A model generated the notes under the pieces. The model worked only from the letters and a program-made list of their open reading frames with translations. It had not been told where the DNA came from and did not search any database. From assembly GCA_900466875.1 (NCBI GenBank), contig UBNQ01000038.1, positions 1-64,000 of the forward strand: a DNA stretch of 64,000 nt, written 5' to 3'. This DNA is from Hyphomicrobiales bacterium. Its GTDB lineage: Bacteria > Pseudomonadota > Alphaproteobacteria > Rhizobiales > Rhizobiaceae. Of this stretch, positions 9,894 through 23,254 are shown piece by piece (the stretch's first letter is position 1; each line of letters opens with the position of its first letter). Both the position numbers and the translations under genes were made by a program.

Positions 9894-10613
9894 TCAGGCC
9901 GCCTGCCAGAAACGGCGGGCGGTCGTCTGTTCCGAAATCGGCTTCGTGCCCCTTAGCGGCACATGCCGCAGCATTTCGAGCGCGAAGGCGCGGGCGTTCT
10001 GCCTTGCCTTGTCGAGATTGCTGATCCGGCCGTCTTCCATCGTGTGAAGCGTGCCGCCGAGATCGAAAATGTCGCGGAAGGCCGCGCGTTCGATGATCGG
10101 CGTGCCCAGCACTTCGACGCCGCGTTCCAGAAGCAGCATTTTTACCGCCAGCAGAGCGCGCGTCGTAACCATCGAATTGACGCGGGTGAGCACGACCGAA
10201 TGCGGAACCTTGATGCCCGCCTTGTCATCGAGGAAGCGCAAGAGTTCGAGCACATTGGCGCCGCCCTGGGCATCCATGGCGCAGCCCTGGATCGGGATCA
10301 GCACGTGGTCGGAAAGACCGATCGCCTTGGCGAGCAGCGGGCTTTGCGCGCCGGGAAGATCGACGATGAAATAATCCGTCGTGTAGCGATGCTCAGTGAT
10401 ATGCCGCTCGATCGACGCCTGCGTCACATAGGAGATCACATTGAGACGCGGCAGGGCCACCGAAAGCTGGTGCCAGCGCGAGATCCAGCGTTGCGGGTCG
10501 GCATCGAGCACGGTGACGCGGTAACCGAGCTGTGCAAGCTCGGTTGCGAGCAACAGCACCGCAGTCGTCTTGCCGGCGCCGCCCTTGGTATTGGCGAAAG
10601 TGATGACGGGCAT
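9894..10613 (-). CDS. orphan ParA/MinD-family ATPase
   Basis: The 239-residue product has a deviant Walker A motif KGGAGKTTAV (residues 10-19), an early Asp in LDADPQRWISRW, and DLPGAQSPLLAKAI as the switch region, so it is a ParA-type ATPase. No parB gene or recognisable centromere repeat lies beside it, and the short form without a DNA-binding N-terminal domain resembles orphan or VirC1-like ParA proteins of rhizobia that position other cargo. A role in plasmid or chromosome partition is therefore not assumed. It is convergent with the polyol dehydrogenase gene. Confidence 0.85.
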   Translation of the reverse strand: MPVITFANTKGGAGKTTAVLLLATELAQLGYRVTVLDADPQRWISRWHQLSVALPRLNVISYVTQASIERHITEHRYTTDYFIVDLPGAQSPLLAKAIGLSDHVLIPIQGCAMDAQGGANVLELLRFLDDKAGIKVPHSVVLTRVNSMVTTRALLAVKMLLLERGVEVLGTPIIERAAFRDIFDLGGTLHTMEDGRISNLDKARQNARAFALEMLRHVPLRGTKPISEQTTARRFWQAA

Positions 10614-11853: not shown

Positions 11854-12936
11854 CTATCGTCGCTTGTCCGCCGCCAATATCTCCCGCGCAATCTGGTCAA
11901 GCGGCACGATGCGGTCGACGCCGCCATGAGCGATGGCTTCCTTCGGCATGCCGAACACGACCGAGCTTGCCTCGTCCTGCGCTACCGTGAAGGCACCGGC
12001 CTGGTGCATTTCGTTCATGCCGCGTGCGCCGTCGTCGCCCATGCCGGTCATGATCACGCCCATCGCGTTGGCGCCGGCTGAACGCGCGGCGGAACGGAAC
12101 AGCACGTCGACCGAAGGCCGGTGGCGGCTGACCAATGGCCCTTCCCGGACGGAAACCTCGTAGCGTGCGCCGCGGCGTTCCAGCAGCATGTGCTTGTCGC
12201 CCGGCGCGATCAGCACGTGGCCGCGCAGGACAGGGTCGCCGTTGACGGCTTCCTTCACTTCGACTTCGCAGAGACTGTTCAGCCGCTTGGCGAAGGCTGC
12301 GGTGAATTTTTCCGGCATGTGCTGGACGATGACCATGCCCGGCGAGTTTGCCGGCAACGTTTCGAGAAGTTCGCGCAGGGCCTCGGTTCCGCCGGTCGAC
12401 GCGCCGACGCAGACGACCATCTCCGTCGTCTTCGCCATCGCGCCGATCTTCGGCGGCGGCAGCACGGCATCGGCCGTCAGCTTGCCCTGGACGGGCCGTT
12501 CCCTCAAGCGGCTTGCCCGCAGTTTGGAAACGCTGGCGCGCGCCGCCCCCTTCACCGTCTGGCGGATCTGTTCGGCATGTTCGGCCAGATGGTCGGCGGC
12601 GCCGATTTTGGGTTTGAGGATGATGTCGACCGCACCGGCATCCAGCGCCTGCATCAGCGTCTCAGAACCGGTTTCGGTCAGTGACGAACACATCACCACC
12701 GGGATCGGATGTTGCGCCATCAGCTTGCGCAGGAAGGTGATGCCGTCCATCTGCGGCATCTCGACATCGAGGGTGATGACGTCGGGTATCTCCTCGCGCA
12801 GTTTCTTGGCGGCCATGAACGGGTCGTTGGCGACCCCCATGATCTCGATATCCGGGTCTTCCGATAGGAGGGTCGCGAGCGTCTGCCGCACGCTCGCCGA
12901 ATCGTCGACGATCAGGACACGAATCTTTCCACCCAT
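11854..12936 (-). CDS. cheB: chemotaxis protein-glutamate methylesterase CheB
   Basis: CheB removes methyl groups from receptors when phosphorylated by CheA and so drives adaptation. The 360-residue product has a receiver domain with phospho-acceptor Asp57 ([11 protein letters not shown]), a linker of about 50 residues, and a methylesterase domain with the triad Ser180 (GASTGGT), His206 (VQHMPEKFT) and Asp302 (MTGMGDDGA). It is the last gene of the leftward che operon, 7 bases after cheR. No cheD gene is found in the window. Confidence 0.95.
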
Positions 12937-12943
12937 GCTATGC

Positions 12944-13816
12944 CTATATCCGTTTGAAGATTGTGTTGGCGACCTGTCGGATCGGTAGATCGAAGCCGCT
13001 CACGGTTTCCGAATGGCCGATGAACAGATAACCGCCGGATACGAGGTTGTTGCACAGCCGGGTCAGAACCTTCTGCTGGGTCTGCTTGTCGAAATAGATC
13101 AGCACGTTGCGGCAGAAGATGATGTGCATCGGATCGCCGATCGGATATTTTGCATCCATCAGGTTCATGCGGGCAAAGCCGACCTTCTGGCGCAGGCTGG
13201 GGACGATCCGCATCTCCTGCCGATGCGCGTTCGCGGCTCGCATCACATAGCGGCGCATCATGTCGGGCGTCACTGGCGCCATTATGTCGGAAGAATAGAT
13301 GCCTTTCTGCGCCTTTTGCAGAACGTCGGTGGAAAGATCCGTCGCAAGGATGAAATAATCCCGATCCGGCGCCTGCGACTGGACGAAATCGGACAGCACC
13401 ATGGCCAGCGTATAGGGTTCGGCCCCCGTCGAGCAGGCAGAACTCCAGATACGGATGCGACGCTCGGGAAACTGCCGGACGATATCGCCAAGGGCGACGT
13501 CCCGCATGTAGTCGAAATGTTTCGGCTCGCGGAAGAAGTCGGTCTTGTTGGTCGTGACCACGTCGATCAGGTGGATGGCCTCGCGTTCGATGCCGCCCTG
13601 ATTGAACAGATAGTCGCAATAATCGTCGAAGGTGGCGATGCCTGTTACCCTCAACCGGCGGCGAAGCCGGCCTTCGAGCATGGTGGATTTGCTCAGCGGC
13701 ATCTTGATGCCGCTATAGCTATAGATGAATTTTGACAGCGCTTCAAAATCGCGCTTGCTGAGCCGGTCGTCCAGCGGTTGGGTTTTTAATGCTACGCTCA
13801 CACTGGGACCCGTCAT
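12944..13816 (-). CDS. cheR: chemotaxis receptor methyltransferase CheR
   Basis: CheR methylates glutamates on the chemoreceptors using S-adenosylmethionine, opposing CheB. The 290-residue product has the N-terminal helical domain ([29 protein letters not shown] region, residues 28-56) and the methyltransferase domain with [32 protein letters not shown] and the late [10 protein letters not shown]. Its ATG overlaps the stop of the preceding cheW as ATGA, so expression is coupled. Confidence 0.95.
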
Positions 13817-14301
13817 GCGACCTGCGAGGTCGGCGCGACGCCGGAAAGCGCCGGGCCGGTATCGGAAAACAGCCGGGCAAGATCGATGATGACGACGAAC
13901 CCGCCATCCTTGCGGACCACCCCGGCGATATAGTCGGATCGCCAGCGAATGCCGATATCGGGCGCATCCTCGATCTGTTCGGCGCGGAACGGCACGACTT
14001 CATAGACGCGGTCTGCGACGAGGCCGAGCGCCAGAACCTTGTCGCCGATCGGCACGTCGAGAACGAGCATGCGCGTATGCGGCGTCCGGGCAGTCGGGCT
14101 CATGCCGAGCCTGATCCGAAGATCAATGATCGGCACGCCCTGTCCGCGCACGTCGCGCAGGCCGAGAAGGTAGTCCGGCCCGTGCGGGATCTTGAAGGCG
14201 TCCTCATGATCGAGGATTTCCCGCACCACCTCGACAGGCACGGCGAAGATTTCTTCGCCGAGACTGAAGGTTACGAACTGGGATTCGGATGATGCGGCCA
14301 T
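13813..14301 (-). CDS. cheW: CheW-type coupling protein (receptor-proximal copy 1)
   Basis: CheW links receptors to the CheA kinase. The 162-residue product is a single CheW domain: QFVTFSLGEEIFAVPVEVVREIL, then GLRDVRGQGVPIIDLRIRLGM and a closing IDLARLFSDTG. It starts 3 bases after the stop of one receptor gene and overlaps cheR, so it belongs to the operon. A second cheW lies directly behind cheA. Two coupling proteins with two sister receptors may give two receptor-specific arrays. Confidence 0.93.
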   Translation of the reverse strand: MAASSESQFVTFSLGEEIFAVPVEVVREILDHEDAFKIPHGPDYLLGLRDVRGQGVPIIDLRIRLGMSPTARTPHTRMLVLDVPIGDKVLALGLVADRVYEVVPFRAEQIEDAPDIGIRWRSDYIAGVVRKDGGFVVIIDLARLFSDTGPALSGVAPTSQVA

Positions 14302-14304
14302 GGT

Positions 14305-16116
14305 TTAAGCGCTTTCCCGGAAATCGGCGTCGTCAGAGTCTGGTCCACCCATCGACATGTCGAGGGCAAAACCCTTGGCGCGCGCCTGCTGAGACTTGAT
14401 GTTGTTGCTCGCTGCCGGAGCAACGTTCCGCTGGTTCTGCTGGGCAGGCTTGTAGGCCGGCGCCCTTGCTGCCGGTGCAGCACGGTCACGGGAGTTGCCC
14501 GTATCGACCTTGAAGAAGGAGATCGACGCTTGAAGTTCTTCGGCCTGGGCGGCGAGCTCTTCCGACGTCGAGGACATTTCCTCGGACGAGCCGGCGTTCT
14601 GCTGGGTCACCTTGTCGAGCTGCTGGATGGCTTCGTTGATCTGGCTGGCACCGATATCCTGTTCGCGGCAGGCGGCGGAGATTTCCGAAACCAGTTCGGC
14701 GGTCTTGTGGATCGCTGGCACCAGCTTGTTCAGCATGTCGCCAGCCTCTGCAGCCGTCTGCACCGTCTCGCCGGAAAGTGAGCTGATTTCGGCAGCGGCA
14801 GCCTGGGACCGTTCGGCAAGCTTGCGGACTTCCGAAGCGACGACGGCAAAGCCCTTGCCGTGTTCGCCGGCACGTGCTGCCTCGACGGCTGCGTTCAAGG
14901 CCAGAAGGTCGGTCTGGCGGGCGATTTCCTGAACGATCGAGATTTTCTCGGCGATCGTGCGCATCGCGCCGACAGCGCGGGCAACCGCTTCGCCGGATGC
15001 TTCGGCATCCTTCGACGACTGACGGGCGATCTTTTCCGTCTGGGCGGCGTTGTCGGCATTCTGCTTGATGTTGGCGGCCATCTGCTCCATCGAGGCGGAA
15101 GCTTCTTCGGCCGAAGACGCCTGTTCGGTTGCCCCCTGCGAGAGCTGTTCGGAGCTGGAGGAGAGTTCCTGGCTGCCCGAGGAGACGTTGTCGGCGGCGG
15201 CAAGCGCGTCGGCCACGACGCCGCGCAAACGCTGGACCATGCTTTCGAGCGCGATGCCGAGCGTATCCTTGTCGGACGCCGGCTTCGGCGTGACGGTCAG
15301 GTTGCCGTTGGCAATCTGGTCGGCGATATCGGCGGTATTGCGCAGATTTGCGGTCATCACGTTGATGGTGTTGACCAGATCGCGGATCTCGTCATTGGTC
15401 TTGATCTCGACGTTCTGGTTGAGATCGCCGATCGAAACGGCCTCGGCTACGCCCATGATCTTGCGAAGACCGTTGCTGATGCTGAGAGCGATCCAAAGTG
15501 CTGCGACGACTGCGATGAGCAGTGCGATCGCGGCCAAGCCGACGATGAAGTTCCGGGTCGTCGTATACTGTTCGTTGGTATCGGCATCTGCCTTCTGCAT
15601 GGCGTCGCGGCTTGCATCTGCGCGTGCATTTGCCAATTCTTCGATCGCATCAACCGTTGTGCGGCCTTCGGTGGTTGCAAGACGGACGGCTTCGGCGCCG
15701 TTGCCGGATTTCGCCAGTTCGCGGATCCTGTCGTCAATCGCAAACAGCTTGTCGCCGAGATCTCCGACATCCTGCCAGGACTTGCGGCCCTGATCTGATG
15801 TGGAAGCGCCGACCAGCCAGGCGATCTCTTCCTTGAACTTCTGGCGGTTGGTGTCGCTTGCCTTGATGTAGCTGTCGACATCTGTCGAATTGGTGGCCGT
15901 CGCCATGTTCATCTGGGCGCGAACGATCCGCAGCTGCAATGCGCCGACATTCTGGGCATGTTCGAGCCGTTTGGCTGGGCCTGCAATGAGTTCGGAGATG
16001 GCGGTGTTGAGGTTGGAAAGGCTGAAGATGCCGTAGCCGGCGGTCAATGCCAGAAGGACGATCATCAGTCCGAAAGACAAAGCCAGCTTAAGTTTGATGG
16101 TAAAACGCAAGGTCAT
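14305..16116 (-). CDS. methyl-accepting chemotaxis protein with 4-helix sensor and double HAMP
   Basis: This 603-residue receptor has an N-terminal membrane helix (about residues 8-28), a periplasmic four-helix-bundle sensor region, a second helix ([23 protein letters not shown]), HAMP segments (the second near [22 protein letters not shown]) and a signalling domain whose tip contains [24 protein letters not shown]. The C-terminal tail [23 protein letters not shown] is shared, apart from a few residues, with the neighbouring receptor. The ATG at 16116 is preferred over an in-frame one 15 bases upstream because GGGG precedes it. Ligand unknown. Confidence 0.93.
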
Positions 16117-16255
16117 AACCCCGATATGCATGAATGGCGACGTGAAGCTTTCATCCTCAAGGGTGAAAGCCGAATGGATAGGTATTCGGGCAGAACATTC
16201 GCCCCGGGACCTGACTGAGAACCGGTCTTACGTCGTCGCATACACACGGCGGCGG

Positions 16256-16295: not shown

Positions 16296-17978
16296 TCAAG
16301 CGCTTTCGCGGAAGTGTTGGTCGTCGGCGTCCGGACCGCCCATCGACATGTCGAGGGCAAAACCCTTGGCCTTGGCTTGTTGCGCATGAACGGAATGGCC
16401 AGCTTGGGCCGGAACCCTGTAGGCTGGCTTTGCCGCGGTGCGCTGGGCAGCGGCGACAGACCGTTTCGGTGCTGCTTTCTGACCGGCCTGATCAACCCGG
16501 AAGAAGGCGATCGAAGCCTGCAGTTCCTCGGCCTGGGACGCCAGTTCCTCGGAGGTTGCCGACATCTCTTCCGATGCGCCGGCATTCTGCTGGGTCACCT
16601 TGTCGAGCTGCTGGATCGCTTCGTTGATCTGGGAGGCACCGATATCCTGTTCGCGGCAGGCGGCGGAGATTTCCGAGACCAGTTCGGCGGTTTTCTGAAT
16701 GTCCGGCACGAGGCGGTTCAGCATTTCGCCGGCTTCGGTCGCCACCTGAACGGTATCGCCAGAGAGCGCGCTGATTTCGGCGGCGGCTGCCTGGGAGCGT
16801 TCGGCCAGCTTGCGCACTTCCGAGGCGACGACGGCAAAACCCTTGCCGTGTTCGCCGGCACGCGCAGCTTCGACGGCGGCGTTCAAGGCAAGTAGGTCGG
16901 TCTGGCGAGCGATTTCCTGCACGATCGAGATTTTTTCGGCGATCGTACGCATCGCACCGACGGCGCGGCTGACGGCCTGGCCGGAAAGCTCGGCATCCTT
17001 GGAGGACTGGCGGGCGATCTTTTCCGTCTGCGCTGCGTTGTCGGCATTCTGCTTGATGTTGGCGGCCATCTCTTCCATCGAGGCGGACGCCTCTTCGGCC
17101 GAAGACGCCTGTTCGGTTGCGCCCTGCGAGAGCTGTTCCGAGCTTGCCGAAAGTTCCTGGCTGCCGGAAGACACGTTGTCGGAAGCCGACAGCGCATCAC
17201 CGACAACGCCACGCAGGCGCTCGATCATGGTGTTGACATAGGTGAGCAGGTCGCCGATCTCGTCCTTGCTGGAAACGGTTGCAAAGCGGGTGAGATCACC
17301 TTCCGCAACATTCTGCACGGCGTTCACCGCATTGCGCAGGCCCTTGTTGATGCTGAGTGCGATCCAGGTTGCGGCAAGCGCTGCGATCAGCAAGGCTGCG
17401 GTGGCAACCGAGATCATCACGAGGCGGGTCTGTATATACCCTGCTTCAGCCTGCTGGCCAGCTTCAACGAGGCGACCGTCCTCAAGCTTCATGACTTCAT
17501 CGAGAAGTGTGTCGATTTCGTTGGTGACGGTGCGGGCCTCATTCGCCGAAATGCGCAGGGCGGCTTCGCTATTGCCCAAGAGCATCAGCCTGCGGATCTC
17601 GTCGTCCTGCTTGCGGAATTCGGCGGTCAGACCTTTCAGCTTGTTCCAGATCACCTTGCCTTGCTCGGTCGCCAGCGCTTCAACTGAGGTGAAGACCTGG
17701 TCGAAGGCCTGACGGGCGACGTCGCCCTTGTTGATCGAGGCCTGCATTTCACTGGAATTCTCGGCCAGCAGAAGGTTCTTCTGCTGGCGAATCTGCTGCA
17801 ATTGTTCGCCGCTCAAGTCCTGGGTAAGGTTGAGCCGGGCAGCCGGGCCTTGGAGAACGTCCTCCAGTGCAGCGTTGAGATTGCCGAGACTGAAGACGCC
17901 GTAACCGGCGGTGACCATCAGCATCAGGATGATGAAGCCGAAAGCCGAAGCAAGCTTGAGCTTGATCGAGGCACGCAT
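16296..17978 (-). CDS. methyl-accepting chemotaxis protein, sister of the adjacent receptor
   Basis: This 560-residue receptor shares the architecture and nearly identical signalling domain of its neighbour, so the pair arose by tandem duplication. It has a membrane helix (about residues 7-27), a four-helix sensor region, a second helix ([20 protein letters not shown]), a single HAMP ([20 protein letters not shown]) and the tip [24 protein letters not shown]. The sensor regions differ much more than the rest, which suggests different ligands. It ends in the shared tail with FRESA. It follows cheW within the operon. Confidence 0.93.
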
Positions 17979-18002: not shown

Positions 18003-18518
18003 TCAGCCGTGGGGTGTCGTGGCTGAGGCATGCTCATGTTTGGCTGAAAAGATGACCTGCAGGTTGGGAAGGATGATGAACTCACTTCCCCGCTTGACCA
18101 GGCAGTTGATGAAATCCGGGCGCCAGCGCATGCCCACGCTCGGCGGCGGTTCGCTGGCGGATTGCAGAAGCGTGGTGACTTCATTCACCTTGTCAGTGCG
18201 GATGCCGGCAAGCACCGGCTCTCCGTCGATTTCGATCTCGATGACGATGATCCGGCTGTCGATCGTCGGCTTCGTCGCCTCCATGCCGAAGGCGAGCCTG
18301 ATATCGGCAAGCGGAATGACCTTGCCGCGGAAGTTGATGACGGCGCCGACAAAGGCCTTGGCGCCCGGAACGCTGGTTTCCGGCAACAGATCCAGGATCT
18401 CCTGAACGATGAAGGCTTCCAGCGCAAAGGTTTCGCCGGCGATCTCGAAGGTCAGGACCTCCAGTTCGTCGCGTCCGTTCCATAGGTCTTCCGAGAGTTT
18501 TGCTATTGCCTGGTTCAT
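18003..18518 (-). CDS. cheW: CheW-type coupling protein (behind cheA)
   Basis: The 171-residue product is a second CheW domain protein: LEVLTFEIAGETFALEAFIVQEIL, GAVINFRGKVIPLADIRLAFGM and a closing FIILPNLQVIFSAKHE. Its ATG overlaps the cheA stop as ATGA. It is only distantly similar to the other CheW in this operon, so the two are not a recent duplication and may serve different receptor groups. Confidence 0.93.
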   Translation of the reverse strand: MNQAIAKLSEDLWNGRDELEVLTFEIAGETFALEAFIVQEILDLLPETSVPGAKAFVGAVINFRGKVIPLADIRLAFGMEATKPTIDSRIIVIEIEIDGEPVLAGIRTDKVNEVTTLLQSASEPPPSVGMRWRPDFINCLVKRGSEFIILPNLQVIFSAKHEHASATTPHG

Positions 18519-20500
18519 CCGGCTGCGCGCAGATGCGCCTCCTGCTGCTGGCCCTCGGCGACGAGGTGGCCGACATCGAGAATAAGCGCGACATCGCCGT
18601 CGCCTAAAATGGTGGCGCCCGAGAAGGTCGCCACGTCATGGTGAAGCTTCGACATGCCCTTGATCACCGTCTGGTGGTCGCCGATGATCTGGTCGACGAC
18701 CAGGCCGACACGCTCTGAACCGGTCGAGATGACGACGACCTTCTGGAATTGATCGGGCTTGGTGCCGGTGCGGAAGAGATCCCGAAGGCGAAGGAAGGGC
18801 ACGAGGCTGTCGCGCAGCGAGATGAAGCTGCGGCCGCGCGAACGCATGTCTTCCTCCACCGAAAGCTCGAGGCATTCCTCGACCGCCGAAAGAGGAATGA
18901 CATAGCGGCCGTTGCCGACCCGCACGAGCAGGCCGTCGATAATGGCGAGTGTCAGCGGAATGGCGAGCGAGATTTCAGACCCTTCGCCCGGGCGGCTGAC
19001 GACGTTGATCGTGCCGCGCAGAGCGTCGATGGTTCGTTTCACCACGTCCATGCCGACGCCGCGGCCGGACAGGTTGGTGACTTCGCTTGCGGTGGAAAAG
19101 CCCGGCTGGAAGATCAGCTGGTAGAGTTCCTGGTCGCTGAGGCTGGCGTTCGCCGTGATGAGGCCGGAGGATTCGGCCTTGGCGCGGACGCGATCCTTGT
19201 TGATGCCGCGGCCGTCGTCCTTGATCGTGATGATCACTTCACCGGCCTGCTGGCGGGCCGAAAGATGGATATGGCCGGCTTCCGTCTTGCCGCTGGCAAG
19301 ACGTTCGTCCGCGGTTTCCAGCCCGTGATCACAGGAATTGCGCACCAGATGGACGAGCGGATCGGCAAGGCGTTCGATGACGCTTTTGTCGACTTCCGTC
19401 GTTTCGCCCTCGGTGATGAGCTCGATCCGCTTGCCGGTTTCATTTGCCAGATCGTGCACCAGGCGGCGGAAGCGGCTGAACAGATGCGTCACCGGCACCA
19501 TGCGCAGCACCATCATCGTATCGCGCAGCTCGCCGGAAAGGCGTTCCACGTCTTCGGACACGGCGCGCAGCGTGAGATCGCCGCTACCGCCAGCCAGCTG
19601 GGAGAGCCGCGACTGGGCAATGACGAGTTCGCCGACCCGGTCCATCAGTTCGTCGAGCTTTTCGGCAGGAACGCGGACGTTTTCATTTGCCTTGGCGGCT
19701 TTGGCATCGCCCGGGGCCGGTGCGGCGAGTGCCGCCGCGGGTGCTGGCGTTTCGGCTGCGACGGGCGCTGCCGCAGGGCGTGTCGGTGCCGCCATGGCGG
19801 CTTCCGGCGCGGCGACGGCGATTTCCTCCACCGCAAGGTCCATATCGTCCATGACGAAGATGAACACGTCGTCGATTGCCGATCGCGGCTGATCGGTCAG
19901 CAGTTCGACATCCCAGGTGATGTGGAGATCGGTCGCGACGAGCGCGTCGAGCGCGGGAATGCCTGAACGGTCGGCAACGACCCGGCAGGTGCCGAGATCG
20001 CGCAACTCGTCGAGCAGTGGCAGCGGGTTCGTGCCATTCGCCATGCAATTGCGGGGCAGGCTGAAGCAGATTTTGAAAAGCGTCTGGGCCGGAGTTTTGG
20101 CCGCAGGCGCAGCGGCTGGATCGCCGCTGCCGTCGACCGCGTGACGCAGATTGAGGAGCAGGACCTCGCTCATCGCTTCATGGTCGCCGGAAGGCGTCTC
20201 CACCAGCGCGCGCATATGGTCCTTGGCTTCGAGGACCGCGGTGACGAGTGCGTGGGTCGCAGGAACCTCGCCCTTGCGCACCCGGTCGAAGGCCGTTTCG
20301 CAATGGTGGGTGAAGGCTGCAAGCGCCTCGAAGCCGAACATGGCGCCGGAGCCCTTGAGCGTATGGAGGCCGCGGAAAACCGCGTCGACCTGATCCTTGT
20401 CGCCGAGATTCACATTGAGATCGAGAAGCCCCGCTTCGATCTGTTCCAGAAGTTCGGCCGCTTCTGTCCTGAAAACCGCGATAGGATCAGGGAAACTCAT
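18515..20500 (-). CDS. cheA: chemotaxis histidine kinase CheA
   Basis: CheA autophosphorylates in response to receptors and passes phosphate to CheY and CheB. The 661-residue product starts MSFPDPIAVF. It has the HPt domain with His46 (LHTLKGSGAMFGFE), a P2-like segment (NGTNPLPLLDELRDLGTCRV), an Ala/Pro-rich linker, the dimerisation and ATPase domains (LVRNSCDHGLE, DDGRGINKDRV, SGRGVGMDVVK) and a CheW-like regulatory domain. The ATG at 20500 overlaps the cheY stop; a longer open frame running through cheY and the STAS gene is an artefact of reading frame. Confidence 0.95.
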   Translation of the reverse strand: MSFPDPIAVFRTEAAELLEQIEAGLLDLNVNLGDKDQVDAVFRGLHTLKGSGAMFGFEALAAFTHHCETAFDRVRKGEVPATHALVTAVLEAKDHMRALVETPSGDHEAMSEVLLLNLRHAVDGSGDPAAAPAAKTPAQTLFKICFSLPRNCMANGTNPLPLLDELRDLGTCRVVADRSGIPALDALVATDLHITWDVELLTDQPRSAIDDVFIFVMDDMDLAVEEIAVAAPEAAMAAPTRPAAAPVAAETPAPAAALAAPAPGDAKAAKANENVRVPAEKLDELMDRVGELVIAQSRLSQLAGGSGDLTLRAVSEDVERLSGELRDTMMVLRMVPVTHLFSRFRRLVHDLANETGKRIELITEGETTEVDKSVIERLADPLVHLVRNSCDHGLETADERLASGKTEAGHIHLSARQQAGEVIITIKDDGRGINKDRVRAKAESSGLITANASLSDQELYQLIFQPGFSTASEVTNLSGRGVGMDVVKRTIDALRGTINVVSRPGEGSEISLAIPLTLAIIDGLLVRVGNGRYVIPLSAVEECLELSVEEDMRSRGRSFISLRDSLVPFLRLRDLFRTGTKPDQFQKVVVISTGSERVGLVVDQIIGDHQTVIKGMSKLHHDVATFSGATILGDGDVALILDVGHLVAEGQQQEAHLRAAG

Positions 20501-20865
20501 TTGCCGAGGACCTTCCTGGCAATCTTGACCAGGCTTTCCGGATCGAAGGGCTTGGTCAGCCAGCCGGTAGCGCCGGCAGCCTTGGCCTGCTGCTTGATTT
20601 CGCCGTCGGATTCGGTGGTGAGGAAGATGACCGGAACACCCGTATGCGCGGGCAGCTTGCGCAGCTCGCGGATCATCGTCAGGCCGTCCATGTTGGGCAT
20701 GTTGAGGTCGGTGATGACCAGGTCGAACTGGCCGGCATTGAGCTTGGCGATGCCATCGACACCGTCGACTGCTTCGGTGACCTGGTAGCCGGCATTGGTC
20801 AGCGCGACCCGCGTCGTCAGGCGAATGCTCGCCGAATCGTCGACGGTCAGGATATTGGCACTCAT
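20497..20865 (-). CDS. cheY: chemotaxis response regulator CheY
   Basis: The 122-residue single-receiver protein has the acidic pair in TVDDSASIR, phospho-acceptor Asp53 (VITDLNMPNMDG), the switch Thr in FLTTES and Lys in LTKPFDPE. Phosphorylated CheY would bind the flagellar motor or act as a phosphate sink. Its start overlaps the STAS gene stop and its stop overlaps cheA, so the three are translationally coupled. Confidence 0.95.
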   Translation of the reverse strand: MSANILTVDDSASIRLTTRVALTNAGYQVTEAVDGVDGIAKLNAGQFDLVITDLNMPNMDGLTMIRELRKLPAHTGVPVIFLTTESDGEIKQQAKAAGATGWLTKPFDPESLVKIARKVLGK

Positions 20866-21191
20866 TGAATTTTTCCTTGGTGAAGCCAGAATTTCGCGTC
20901 GTCGTCCGACATGCCTTCCAGGAAGCCGCTTCTGCGAAGCGTTTCGAGAAGCGCACCGCTTGCCGGCTGTGCAAGCGCGATGTGCTTGCCGGCCGTTCCC
21001 GCATAAATGCGGGCGGACTCGACCATCTGGATGAAGCTGATGTCGACCTGCACATCATCCGCCAGCTCGATCGTGGCGGCCTCGTGTGCGTCAATGAATT
21101 TCAGCATGTCTTCGCGCACGGGCATAATAGCCCGGACCGTCAGATTTTCGGGCAAGCGGAGGCATGCTTCGTTTAGGCCTGCAATATTCAT
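20862..21191 (-). CDS. STAS-domain protein, first gene of the che operon
   Basis: The 109-residue product has a STAS-type (anti-sigma antagonist-like) layout: short strands around AATIELADDVQVDISFIQMVESARIY, then GKHIALAQPASGALLETLRRSGFLE. Small STAS proteins often lead rhizobial and other alphaproteobacterial che operons. The usual phosphorylatable Ser at the loop is not clear here; SFIQMVESA occupies that place. The ATG at 21191 has GGAGCAGGT before it, while the longer open frame would run into the promoter. Function in the pathway is unknown. Confidence 0.75.
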   Translation of the reverse strand: MNIAGLNEACLRLPENLTVRAIMPVREDMLKFIDAHEAATIELADDVQVDISFIQMVESARIYAGTAGKHIALAQPASGALLETLRRSGFLEGMSDDDAKFWLHQGKIQ

Positions 21192-21514
21192 ACCTGCTCC
21201 AAAAGCCTTAGAATATGCTGAAATAGCCTGCCAAATTTGGGCCATCATGCTTAACCGGAAGTTAATTGGCGCCAGTGAGTTTTCATGTGCATTAGTCGTA
21301 TTTGGCGTTTAGCTCATGTTCATATCTCCCGAAAATTAACCACGAGCGGTGAAACCAACAGGCTGTTTTGTCCCGGTTAACCGTCGCCGACGCAGAGTGT
21401 CGTCATGTGAGGACGACCCGTGCCAGGCTTTGCCGCCCGGCGGAGAGTTGTCCCAGAATGAACAGGGCAAATCGGTGTCGGTAAGGGTGAAAAACCTCCG
21501 GCAGAGCATGAAGG
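21192..21514. promoter_or_regulatory. divergent promoter region of the che cluster
   Basis: These 323 bases hold no gene. The left half (21200-21390) is AT-richer than its surroundings and carries a CtrA-type box (listed separately) and two isolated TTAACC half-sites near 21335 and 21379. The right half is the leader of the 579-residue protein gene, which has a weak AAGG directly before its GTG start. Confidence 0.5.
21251..21265. promoter_or_regulatory. candidate CtrA box
   Basis: TTAA-CCGGAAG-TTAA fits the TTAA-N7-TTAA core of the CtrA recognition site on both strands. It is about 60 bases upstream of the STAS-cheY-cheA operon start. CtrA commonly controls motility and chemotaxis genes in alphaproteobacteria; binding here is inferred. 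Confidence 0.5.
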
Positions 21515-23254
21515 GTGGCCGAAGTGGCAGTTGCGGCAGTTTTGGTGAATGGGGCGGAGCTTTTTGAAGGATCGGCCCCGGTTTCCGGTCTTGTGGACCG
21601 GATGGAAACGGCCAGATCCCGCATCGAAGAGCGCTTCCTCGACGGCGGCGCGGCCCTTCTTTCGGTTCTCGACGTCCTCAATAAGCTGACCGGCTCGCTC
21701 GACCAGATCACCGGCTCGCTTGACGAGGAAACCGCAGCCAGGACCATGGCCGAATTGCAGCAGACGGTCGGTCGTCTATCCCAACTCAGCGCCATCGAAA
21801 CCGCGCGTCAGGCCGGTTTCGTCGATATCTCGGGGGCGGAGCGCAATCTTCGACCACATGTCGCGGACATGCAGGAAACCATGCGGTATCTGCGCACATT
21901 TGCGGTAACGGCAAAGATAACCGGAGCAGGCATTGCCGATTTTGCCGGATTTGCCGAAGAAATCCTCGAACGCATCCAGACCGGTACGCGGCAGGTGAAC
22001 GAGTTCGGCGACAAGCTGAAGTCTCTCGGATCCGGCCTTGGCTCGGTCATGGAACGCGGCATGGCAACGATCGAGCGCTATGAAGCGACCATTCCGGGCA
22101 TCGTTACAGGGCTTTCGACCGGCGGCGCCGAAATCAGCGCGCAGCAGAAGACGCTTGTCGAGCGGGCGGCGCGGGTTCGCAAGATCGCCGCAGGCATTCA
22201 GGGCAAGCTCGCGTCCGTTCTCTCCGCCATGCAGATCGGCGACATTACCCGCCAGCGCATCGAGCATTGCCAAAGCACGCTGACCCTTCTTCAAACCTAT
22301 TTGGAAACAGAGGCCGGGATGCTGAAGGCGGACGACCGGGCAAACCTGTCGTCGATCATCACCAACCTCGTTGCCCTGCAGCTCAGCCAGTCGATCGACG
22401 ATTTCGACCGTGACACGGCCAAGATTGTCGCGACCGTCGCAAGCTTCCGTTCCGACCTTGCGGAAATCGACGGCCTGCGCCGGACGATGACCGAAGGCGG
22501 TGGCGACAACGCGATGCGCCGCCTCGAAGGCAATGTCGGCGTGGCGCGCGAGGCGGTCAGGGAGATCGAGGCGGTGTCGCAGGAGGCCGGTGCACTCACC
22601 CGCTCGACCGGGACAACGGTTCGCGAACTCATCAACGGCGTCGGACTGCTGCAGCTGGTGCGTACCGACATCCACTACATGGCACTCAACACCAATCTTC
22701 GCTGCGGCAAGATCGGAGAACAGGGCAAGGCACTCAACGTCGTCACCGCGGAACTGCGCAATTTTGCAGCCCGACTGGATGGAACCGCGGAAAACGTCCT
22801 GGTCGAACTGCAGACGCTGGAAACCGCTTCCGACAAGCTGAATATCGGCCATGAAGACGACAGCCAGGAGCTGCTGGACGATCGTCTGGCGAGGGCGATG
22901 CAGAGCATCCGCGATGTCGGCGACCGGATGGACTGCGAAATCGATGCGCTGAGCGAGCAGAGCGGGGTCGCCATCGATCAGATGGAGAATGCTCTGTCGC
23001 GCCTCGATTTCAAGGCGGAACTCGGCGAAGTCCTGCGCGACTGCGCCGACGAGATAGCGATGGTCGAGGCGCCGGAACCGTCTGCCGGTCTGGAGCCGGC
23101 TCTGGCCGATCTCGGCACCCGGATTGGAAAGCTTTACACCATGGTCTCGGAACGTGAGCTGCATGCAGCGGTTCTCGGGACCACGGCTCCGGTCGAAACA
23201 GCTGCCATTGCCACGGTCATGAGCGATGACGACATTGACGATGCGCTGTTCTGA
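21515..23254 (+). CDS. soluble helical chemotaxis-associated protein with receptor-like and CheZ-like motifs
   Basis: I do not know a name for this 579-residue protein. It has no membrane segment and is predicted almost wholly helical. A degenerate receptor tip is visible at residues 390-416 (ALNTNLRCGKIGEQGKALNVV), aligned with the tip of the neighbouring receptors. At 239-250, MQIGDITRQRIE resembles the active-site helix of CheZ with its Asp-x-x-x-Gln (here Asp243, Gln247). The extreme C-terminus DDDIDDALF resembles the CheY-binding tail of CheZ. It is divergent from the che operon across a shared promoter. A CheY-phosphate phosphatase or cytoplasmic receptor are the two best guesses. A GTG at 21524 could be the start instead. 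Confidence 0.75.
   Translation: MAEVAVAAVLVNGAELFEGSAPVSGLVDRMETARSRIEERFLDGGAALLSVLDVLNKLTGSLDQITGSLDEETAARTMAELQQTVGRLSQLSAIETARQAGFVDISGAERNLRPHVADMQETMRYLRTFAVTAKITGAGIADFAGFAEEILERIQTGTRQVNEFGDKLKSLGSGLGSVMERGMATIERYEATIPGIVTGLSTGGAEISAQQKTLVERAARVRKIAAGIQGKLASVLSAMQIGDITRQRIEHCQSTLTLLQTYLETEAGMLKADDRANLSSIITNLVALQLSQSIDDFDRDTAKIVATVASFRSDLAEIDGLRRTMTEGGGDNAMRRLEGNVGVAREAVREIEAVSQEAGALTRSTGTTVRELINGVGLLQLVRTDIHYMALNTNLRCGKIGEQGKALNVVTAELRNFAARLDGTAENVLVELQTLETASDKLNIGHEDDSQELLDDRLARAMQSIRDVGDRMDCEIDALSEQSGVAIDQMENALSRLDFKAELGEVLRDCADEIAMVEAPEPSAGLEPALADLGTRIGKLYTMVSERELHAAVLGTTAPVETAAIATVMSDDDIDDALF

Follow-up and report, generated by a model that had tools for sequence, protein, structure and literature searches.

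How is the signal ended in a chemotaxis cluster that encodes a CheY, in a genome where no match to the Pfam CheZ family (PF04344) was found anywhere? The question is raised by a stretch of 64,000 nucleotides from a member of the Rhizobiaceae (Hyphomicrobiales bacterium, assembly GCA_900466875.1, contig UBNQ01000038.1, positions 1 to 64,000; hereafter the window), and in particular by the gene of a protein that we call P0001, which belongs to a class F8 (Che2-type) chemotaxis cluster. In E. coli CheZ, the phosphatase of phosphorylated CheY (CheY-P), the catalytic residues are D143 and Q147, and the glutamine positions the water that attacks the phosphoryl group of CheY. P0001 carries a similar pair, D243 and Q247, on a chain that resembles chemoreceptors. 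The reading that we prefer, with a probability of roughly 0.54, is that P0001 would be a receptor-derived, single-chain CheY-P phosphatase and the signal-termination protein of this F8-class system.

The motif and tail of P0001

The frame of P0001 is open over 579 residues from a GTG start, the choice of start codon being uncertain because conservation begins only near residue 31. The original prediction had recognized three features in it: a hairpin tip like that of receptors, the CheZ-like D243/Q247 within residues 239-250 (MQIGDITRQRIE), and a C-terminal end, DDDIDDALF, like the tail of CheZ. All three are present, and a weaker first hairpin tip at about residues 119-157, overlooked at the time, has to be added to them. 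The features are listed here, the single-hairpin family being a group of relatives described in the next section.

21515-23254, + strand: double-hairpin protein P0001, 579 residues, candidate CheY-P phosphatase (open frame, homologs, AlphaFold2 model)
21869-21985, + strand: first hairpin tip, residues 119-157, a strongly degenerate receptor tip (turn 137-140 in the model; superposition on Tsr; profile match to the single-hairpin family, P 1.5e-14)
22220-22273, + strand: CheZ-like motif LSAMQIGDITRQRIEHCQ, residues 236-253 (invariant residues; D and Q roughly opposite the hydrophobic face)
22241-22243 and 22253-22255, + strand: codons of D243 and Q247
22667-22777, + strand: second hairpin tip, residues 385-421, a degenerate signalling tip of methyl-accepting chemotaxis proteins (MCPs), turn 401-402 (MCPsignal 17.4 bits; receptor profile match; Tsr superposition)
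23003-23035, + strand: degenerate second motif copy LDFKAELGEVL, residues 497-507, without the D/Q pair (aligned with QDFQDLTGQVI of CheZ, near the FQDxxxQ of the single-hairpin family)
23135-23164, + strand: YTM..ER..H helix, residues 541-550 (invariant residues; common to part of the single-hairpin family)
23222-23251, + strand: acidic-hydrophobic, CheZ-like tail SDDDIDDALF, residues 570-579 (tail conservation counts)

The D243xxxQ247 pair, which is the sole DxxxQ anywhere in P0001, is kept in all 94 distinct Rhizobiaceae homologs (P0001 itself counted), in each of 25 distant homologs that represent other genera and families within the order, and in nine of nine further strong homologs (L222-L224, L257, L258, L261-L264), some of them from Sphingomonas, Novosphingobium and Azospirillum; homologs that keep both residues share about 20% identity. 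The surroundings of the pair are conserved as well: G242, D243, R246, Q247, R248, E250 and H251 are invariant in the 24 rows of a diverse alignment, together with N392 and G401 of the second tip and Y541, T542, E546, R547 and H550 near the C-terminus. Beyond these rows, G242 is lost in L224 and R246 in L264. A single pattern applied to all sets finds the tail in 91 of the 94 Rhizobiaceae homologs, 24 of the 25 distant ones and 18 of 18 single-hairpin proteins, and two CheZ proteins of the same order end in SQDDIDALFD. The exceptions comprise two near variants (DLFAGALF in L101 and DLDALMF in L130), one loss (L109), and one gene split by a frame break, where the tail sits on the next piece (L022). 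This last case comes from Aliirhizobium terrae (L043 and L022), where frame breaks split both cheA and the family gene, through either sequencing error or decay of the cluster.

As a control, 179 receptor-like open reading frames were collected from the same loci, and the 169 with a recognizable tip and at least 400 residues were used, the other 10 being dropped. Neither the motif in its context ([FYIVL][QG]DxxxQ, 85-140 residues past the tip) nor a tail of the P0001 type occurs in any of these 169 canonical receptors. The helical phase of the motif also bears comparison with CheZ: measured from the hydrophobic face, the angles of D and Q are 144 and 176 degrees in the P0001 family, 135 and 175 in the single-hairpin family, and 177 and 143 in CheZ, with weak hydrophobic moments in the first two families. 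For the comparison of the P0001 family with CheZ the moments are 0.38 and 0.70, which are likewise weak. By this predicted phase, D243 and Q247 would be exposed on the outer face of their helix, as in CheZ.

The remainder of the chain recalls a receptor that has lost several of its attributes. The second tip scores 17.4 bits against MCPsignal, short of the Pfam cut-off of 34.6, and in the alignment R396 replaces the glutamate of NAAVEAAR in Tsr, so that the charge of the tip is reversed. Scans of P0001 against Pfam and NCBIfam gave weak matches only, the best ones to MCPs; neither a HAMP match nor a strongly hydrophobic segment was found by the Pfam scan and hydropathy, and the methylation consensus has no match in P0001 versus five in each of the two receptors of the cluster. 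Two plasmid homologs (NZ_CP093339.1 and CP132317.1) are labelled “type VII secretion target”, probably via a chance WXG100-like match.

Single-hairpin relatives and the predicted fold

Where could a receptor-like chain with such a motif come from? Phylum-wide searches retrieved single-hairpin proteins with one ordinary receptor tip, in open frames of 383 to 533 residues, mostly from outside the class Alphaproteobacteria, with three from inside it (G168, G259 and G411). A filter that combined a receptor tip with FQ[DE]xxxQ was passed by 18 of 30 loci, and the other 12 were left unused. The distance from the tip to the D is 112-114 residues in 17 of the 18, the remaining one (L271) being a miscall of the pattern on another string, and all 18 C-termini show an acidic residue and two hydrophobic ones within a few places (DITFF, DVTFF, NIELF).

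The profile of this family matches both halves of P0001. Against half 1 it scores 103.6 (P 1.5e-14; shuffles reach at most 38.7 and reversed profiles 36.3), and against half 2 plus the C-terminus 154.8 (P 1.7e-21; shuffles at most 42.9, reversed 23.9), with motif aligned on motif and YTM..ER..H on its counterpart. In the same kind of comparison, ordinary receptors score 75.8 against half 2, a match, and 23.0 against half 1, which is none, and the cluster's own receptors 75-76 against the second half. From these matches and the predicted fold, P0001 looks like two single-hairpin units in one chain, the D/Q site being preserved in the first and the tail in the second. The single-hairpin family itself can be compared with CheZ: their profiles score 39.8 over 70 columns with FQDxxxQ in register (shuffles at most 25.9, reversed 21.9), and Pfam CheZ matches three of the 12 single-hairpin proteins scanned, with E values from 4e-5 to 2e-3, below its cut-off.

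The genes of these relatives also keep chemotaxis company. Among 16 loci picked by hand from the matches, 14 have a cheY-like gene adjoining the single-hairpin gene (in 13 a script found a cheY-like frame no more than 600 bases away, and L298 is added because the script's length filter had passed over its frame); of the other two, L297 follows cheB and L301 shows no che gene. In the proteins of Pseudomonas sp. HR96 and Aeromonas sp. BC14, FQDRVSQ stands 110 residues past the tip and the C-termini read NDITFF and ADVTFF; in both genomes the order is single-hairpin gene, response regulator, STAS, CheA, receptor, CheW ... CheR, CheD, CheB. Six single-hairpin proteins have a maximum 19-residue hydropathy of 1.94-2.26, versus 1.35 in P0001.

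An AlphaFold2 model of P0001 built on 49 sequences is almost wholly helical (mean predicted local distance difference test, pLDDT, 82.7; predicted template modelling score, pTM, 0.56), with turns at 137-140 and 401-402, a third one at 266-271, and D243 about 105 residues past the first turn. Residues 264-522 of the model superpose on Tsr 254-515 (Z 9.2, root-mean-square deviation (rmsd) 6.1, 255 residues aligned) and residues 7-274 on a Thermotoga receptor (Z 9.1, rmsd 5.7, 261 aligned). When half 1 was modelled alone (24-268, pLDDT 85.0), the nine best Foldseek rows were chemoreceptors, with a best E of 1.5e-4, and the model superposed on Tsr 271-516 with Z 12.9 (rmsd 6.1, 240 aligned), a tie with an Smc coiled coil at 13.2; the whole model gave no Foldseek match at E<=0.001. 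Z values of this size are common for long helical hairpins, and more weight is given here to the profiles than to the superpositions. Taken with this proviso, both halves of P0001 are predicted to be signalling hairpins of the receptor type.

The F8 cluster and the spread of the family

The P0001 gene is transcribed away from the rest of its cluster, whose genes lie on the opposite strand in the order STAS-cheY-cheA-cheW-mcp-mcp-cheW-cheR-cheB.

20862-21248, - strand: STAS-domain protein, divergent neighbour of the P0001 gene (STAS_2, E 4.9e-5, below cut-off)
20497-20865, - strand: CheY, the proposed substrate; DD at 9-10, acceptor in ITD-LNMP, KP at 105 (Response_reg, E 1.9e-28)
18515-20494, - strand: CheA kinase, 5' end approximate (Hpt, H-kinase_dim, HATPase_c, CheW)
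18003-18518, - strand: CheW (CheW, E 9e-25)
16296-17978, - strand: membrane chemoreceptor (4HB_MCP, HAMP, MCPsignal)
14305-16131, - strand: membrane chemoreceptor (4HB_MCP, HAMP, MCPsignal)
13813-14301, - strand: second CheW (CheW, E 1.6e-31)
12944-13816, - strand: CheR
11854-12936, - strand: CheB

The acidic pair, the acceptor aspartate and the lysine of this CheY all stand in their usual contexts. It is the only CheY of the F8 cluster, as the original prediction said, and the statement stops at the cluster, since the Che1 cluster of the same genome (L170) has two cheY genes.

With a threshold of E<=0.001, 57 of 100 relatives have a homolog of P0001, and 50 of the 57 still have one at E<=1e-10; the tie of these homologs to the cluster is a close one. 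The flank fetched around the family gene includes both cheA and cheY of the cluster at 76 of 79 loci from named records, and at 74 of those 76 the family gene and the STAS gene are neighbours that are transcribed divergently. No cheA was seen at L050, L072 and L109, and the arrangement differs at L052 and L056. Of 18 loci from other genera, 16 have the family gene next to the cluster, either ahead of STAS and on its strand or past cheB, and the other two (L204 and L219) show no cluster beside it. A Sphingomonas plasmid, for instance, carries STAS, response regulator, CheA, CheW, three receptors, CheW, CheR and CheB, followed by the family gene, annotated as “hypothetical protein”. When the family gene (E<=1e-10) and an F8-type CheA (E<=1e-100) were scored in 100 related genomes, 49 had both, 48 neither, two the CheA only and one the gene only. 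Of the two CheA-only genomes, G093 turned out on profile search to have a distant member of the family, and in G012 the contig ends at the F8 cheA, so that nothing can be read into the lack of the gene there. An orphan copy (L314, in genome G033) stands beside truB-rpsO-pnp, with the F8 cluster not adjacent.

Wider searches matched 166 of 337 genomes in the class (E<=1e-8) and 232 of 299 in the phylum, mostly through partial receptor matches and with three or four candidates scored per genome, so that the true spread cannot be deduced from these counts; near-full-profile matches are few among the class-search matches listed (G000, G093, G515, G521, and G758 over less of the profile). In R. leguminosarum 3841 the ortholog is L088, and the che cluster that it adjoins is taken to be the Che2 (class F8) system. 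The published description of Che2 (RL4036 to RL4028) lists the cluster from cheY3 on, and the ortholog is not named in that list (PMC7617929).

Two other genes recur in these neighbourhoods. A ParA/MinD-like ATPase is encoded beyond cheB in the window (9894-10613, - strand), with relatives near the F8 cluster at L050, L052, L056, L218 and L313, and in Agrobacterium leguminum a ParA family protein lies between the P0001-family gene and cheB. The STAS gene beside cheY is conserved in F8 clusters and in both named gammaproteobacterial clusters with single-hairpin genes.

Alternatives and known systems

How would a phosphatase of this kind work? According to our preferred reading, the two receptor-like hairpins would fold within one soluble chain as a pseudo-dimeric four-helix bundle. 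Half 1 would hold the CheZ-type site D243/Q247 on its outer face, some 105 residues from the tip, and half 2 would have lost its D/Q site and retained the C-terminal helix and the tail. The acidic tail would dock CheY-P, D243 and Q247 would enter the active site of CheY in the manner of D143 and Q147 of E. coli CheZ, and Q247 would position the water that attacks the phosphoryl group. The degenerate tips might place P0001 at the receptor array or, on the contrary, insulate it from the array. Binding of CheY, catalysis, the CheY of the own cluster as substrate and a link to the array are what we infer from sequence.

A number of observations weigh against this reading. Each chain would have a single D/Q site. 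Pfam CheZ, the profile named in the original prediction, does not match P0001 at E<=10, and a structural match to the CheZ bundle, the lack of which the original prediction would have counted against itself, did not appear among the rows listed: what the models resemble are receptor hairpins and other bundles of helices. An absence of CheZ from these rows is uninformative either way. For the whole model, unrelated helical proteins such as TTYH channels (Z up to 16.5), axonemal proteins and ClyA outrank the receptors (Z about 9). Once the motif is masked, the score between the single-hairpin family and CheZ falls to 23.6, inside the range of the shuffles, so that the comparison gives no sign of homology to CheZ outside the motif, and the likeness at the motif itself may be due to convergence or chance. 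With half 1 on its own, the score against CheZ at the motif is 20.8; a wide P0001 family reaches 40.0 (shuffles at most 24.1, reversed 26.4 and 29.8), yet its alignment falls on half 2, which lacks the D/Q pair. Direct tests of a duplication gave 26.4 (reversed 26.8) and 31.1 (reversed 26.1) between the halves, which is not significant, and the duplication is argued from the common single-hairpin relatives and the predicted fold. At the site itself, homologs of P0001 have I/V-G (IGD) before the catalytic D where CheZ has FQD, and R246 and R248, present in 24 of 24 rows, are absent from CheZ. A plain DxxxQ occurs 85-140 residues past the tip in 164 of the 169 canonical receptors, and both receptors of the cluster (16296-17978 and 14305-16131) have one, LDKVTQQNA, at +90 from the tip; with DxxxQ so common on receptor stalks, the pair alone proves little, and it is its context, position and company that are telling. 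Finally, one genome (G033) holds the family gene without an F8 CheA match, and CttP, one of the McpA-like receptors discussed below, has been tied to taxis toward trichloroethylene and to clustering with the F6 system (PMC7534058), which would favour a receptor role.

Two sets of results were set aside. The non-receptor rows of the structure comparisons (TTYH, axonemal, ClyA, Smc) were regarded as common helical arrangements, and the comparison of a narrow P0001 family with CheZ was rejected, with a score of 26.2 and the motif in register, yet with reversed profiles that reach 26.4 and 29.8.

Could P0001 be simply a degenerate cytoplasmic receptor or array component, which binds CheW/CheA or caps arrays and uses its DxxxQ for packing? 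The homology of half 2 to the receptor signalling domain, the prediction of both halves as receptor hairpins and the frequency of DxxxQ on receptors would all fit, and tip residues 385-397, almost all invariant within Rhizobiaceae, indicate that the tip binds something. This explanation deserves attention, and we nevertheless find it unlikely. The second tip has diverged in distant genera, in contrast to the D/Q motif and the tail, which are retained; P0001 has the reversed tip charge and none of the HAMP, hydrophobic or methylation features that were looked for; and the DxxxQ in FQD/GD context is absent from all 169 receptors. As for the LDKVTQ of the cluster's receptors, it sits at +90, not at +112, and in the profile alignment it is not matched with the FQDxxxQ (D at +112-114), with the caveat that coiled-coil alignments can slip.

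It is less probable again that P0001 binds CheY-P (or CheB-P) through its tail as a sink, tether or localiser, its CheZ-like residues being a non-catalytic binding surface. The CheZ-like tail and the outward-facing D/Q pair would serve such a role equally, and the changes of F-Q to I-G before the D and of G to R246 alter the CheZ site; both catalytic residues are invariant at about 20% identity, which binding alone need not require. The poorest prospects are those of a mere coincidence of D/Q pair and tail in a conserved coiled-coil protein, for example a scaffold for the STAS protein or the ParA-like ATPase. Its appeal comes from the conserved Q240, G242, R246, R248, E250, H251 and YTM..ER..H, which exceed what CheZ needs, and from the loss of the CheZ signal upon masking; it sits badly with a motif, a tail and a linkage to cheY that are conserved together, and with the full FQDxxxQ of the single-hairpin relatives. 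The original prediction of a CheZ-like motif on a receptor-like body stands as a conserved architecture, no one-off, and its likeness to CheZ has to be confined to the motif.

Among known systems, the McpA-like receptors (class 24H; PA0180/CttP/McpA and VCA1088) offer the closest parallel to the single-hairpin family. They have been described as uncategorised or 24H receptors, neighbours of F7 clusters and dispensable for array formation (PMC7184735, PMC7534058), and also as lacking the CheR pentapeptide and having a conserved C-terminus, with a role that is “important yet unclear” (PMC7184735). F7 clusters of stages 1-2 are described in the same paper with cheY present and cheZ absent (PMC7184735), and the end of PA0180 has a valine at the second position of the pentapeptide site (PMC7184735, PMC7534058), which would agree with an end of the -DVTFF type. 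Like them, the single-hairpin proteins have a signalling domain, a transmembrane region, a gene beside a cheY-cheA cluster and a conserved C-terminus, and from gene order and the published descriptions, rather than from the sequences of PA0180 and VCA1088, they appear to be McpA-like receptors. P0001 differs in being predicted soluble, in having two hairpins per chain and in its F8 cluster. A broader proposal, which we put forward tentatively and at somewhat less than even odds, is that the McpA-like 24H receptors (F7-type) and the F8 double-hairpin proteins would form one family of receptor-derived CheY-P phosphatases, not receptors, supplying termination where a cheY lacks a cheZ, and that a tandem fusion in alphaproteobacteria would have turned the homodimer into one chain, in which one site is live and the other dead.

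No description of a CheZ-type site in McpA-like or F8 double-hairpin proteins was found in the open-licence papers searched. If true, the proposal would give one answer both to the F7 clusters that have cheY without cheZ and to the conserved C-terminus of the McpA-like receptors (PMC7184735), and it would also apply to F8 systems, among them the Che2 system of R. leguminosarum, which influences how bacteroids develop (PMC7617929). Some annotated receptors would then act downstream of the kinase, not upstream, and P0001 would clearly exemplify an enzyme site that arose on the stalk of a receptor.

Compared with the MCPs (PF00015), P0001 shares the predicted hairpin fold of both halves and the related sequence of the second tip, and it departs from them in scoring under the Pfam cut-off, in the HAMP, membrane span and methylation consensus, none of which was found, and in its FQD/GD-type DxxxQ and its tail. 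In rhizobia a different DxxxQ protein is already known, the CheT of S. meliloti, which according to a review speeds the dephosphorylation of one of two CheYs (PMC12654446). The idea behind the original prediction, that rhizobia lack CheZ and rely on a CheY sink, has been published for Che1-type systems (PMC8429497), and it does not hold throughout, since Azorhizobium has a CheZ (PMC7750401) and S. meliloti its CheT (PMC12654446). The Che1 cluster of our genome includes a CheT-like gene (L170:11086-11481; 131 residues, with DLAVQ and the end DFDFF) between cheD and a fliF-looking frame, with relatives in 36 of 60 related genomes. This protein resembles P0001 in its DxxxQ and its tail of acidic and aromatic residues, and differs in its small size and in serving the other che cluster; P0001 as a relative of CheT was considered and rejected, no sequence similarity being found (score 16.3, P 0.27). 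Each of the two che clusters in the cell may therefore have a DxxxQ protein of its own, the two being of separate origin.

The comparison that matters most is that with CheZ. In the AXXFQ motif of CheZ, F-Q directly precedes the catalytic D (PMC7750401), and the single-hairpin relatives have F-Q in this position too. P0001 is like CheZ in the predicted place of its DxxxQ on the outer helix face, in its acidic C-terminal tail and in its linkage to cheY, and unlike it in its receptor-like body, in the double hairpin within a single chain and in a likeness limited to the motif. Judged from these sequences, P0001 probably works like CheZ, rather than being a CheZ.

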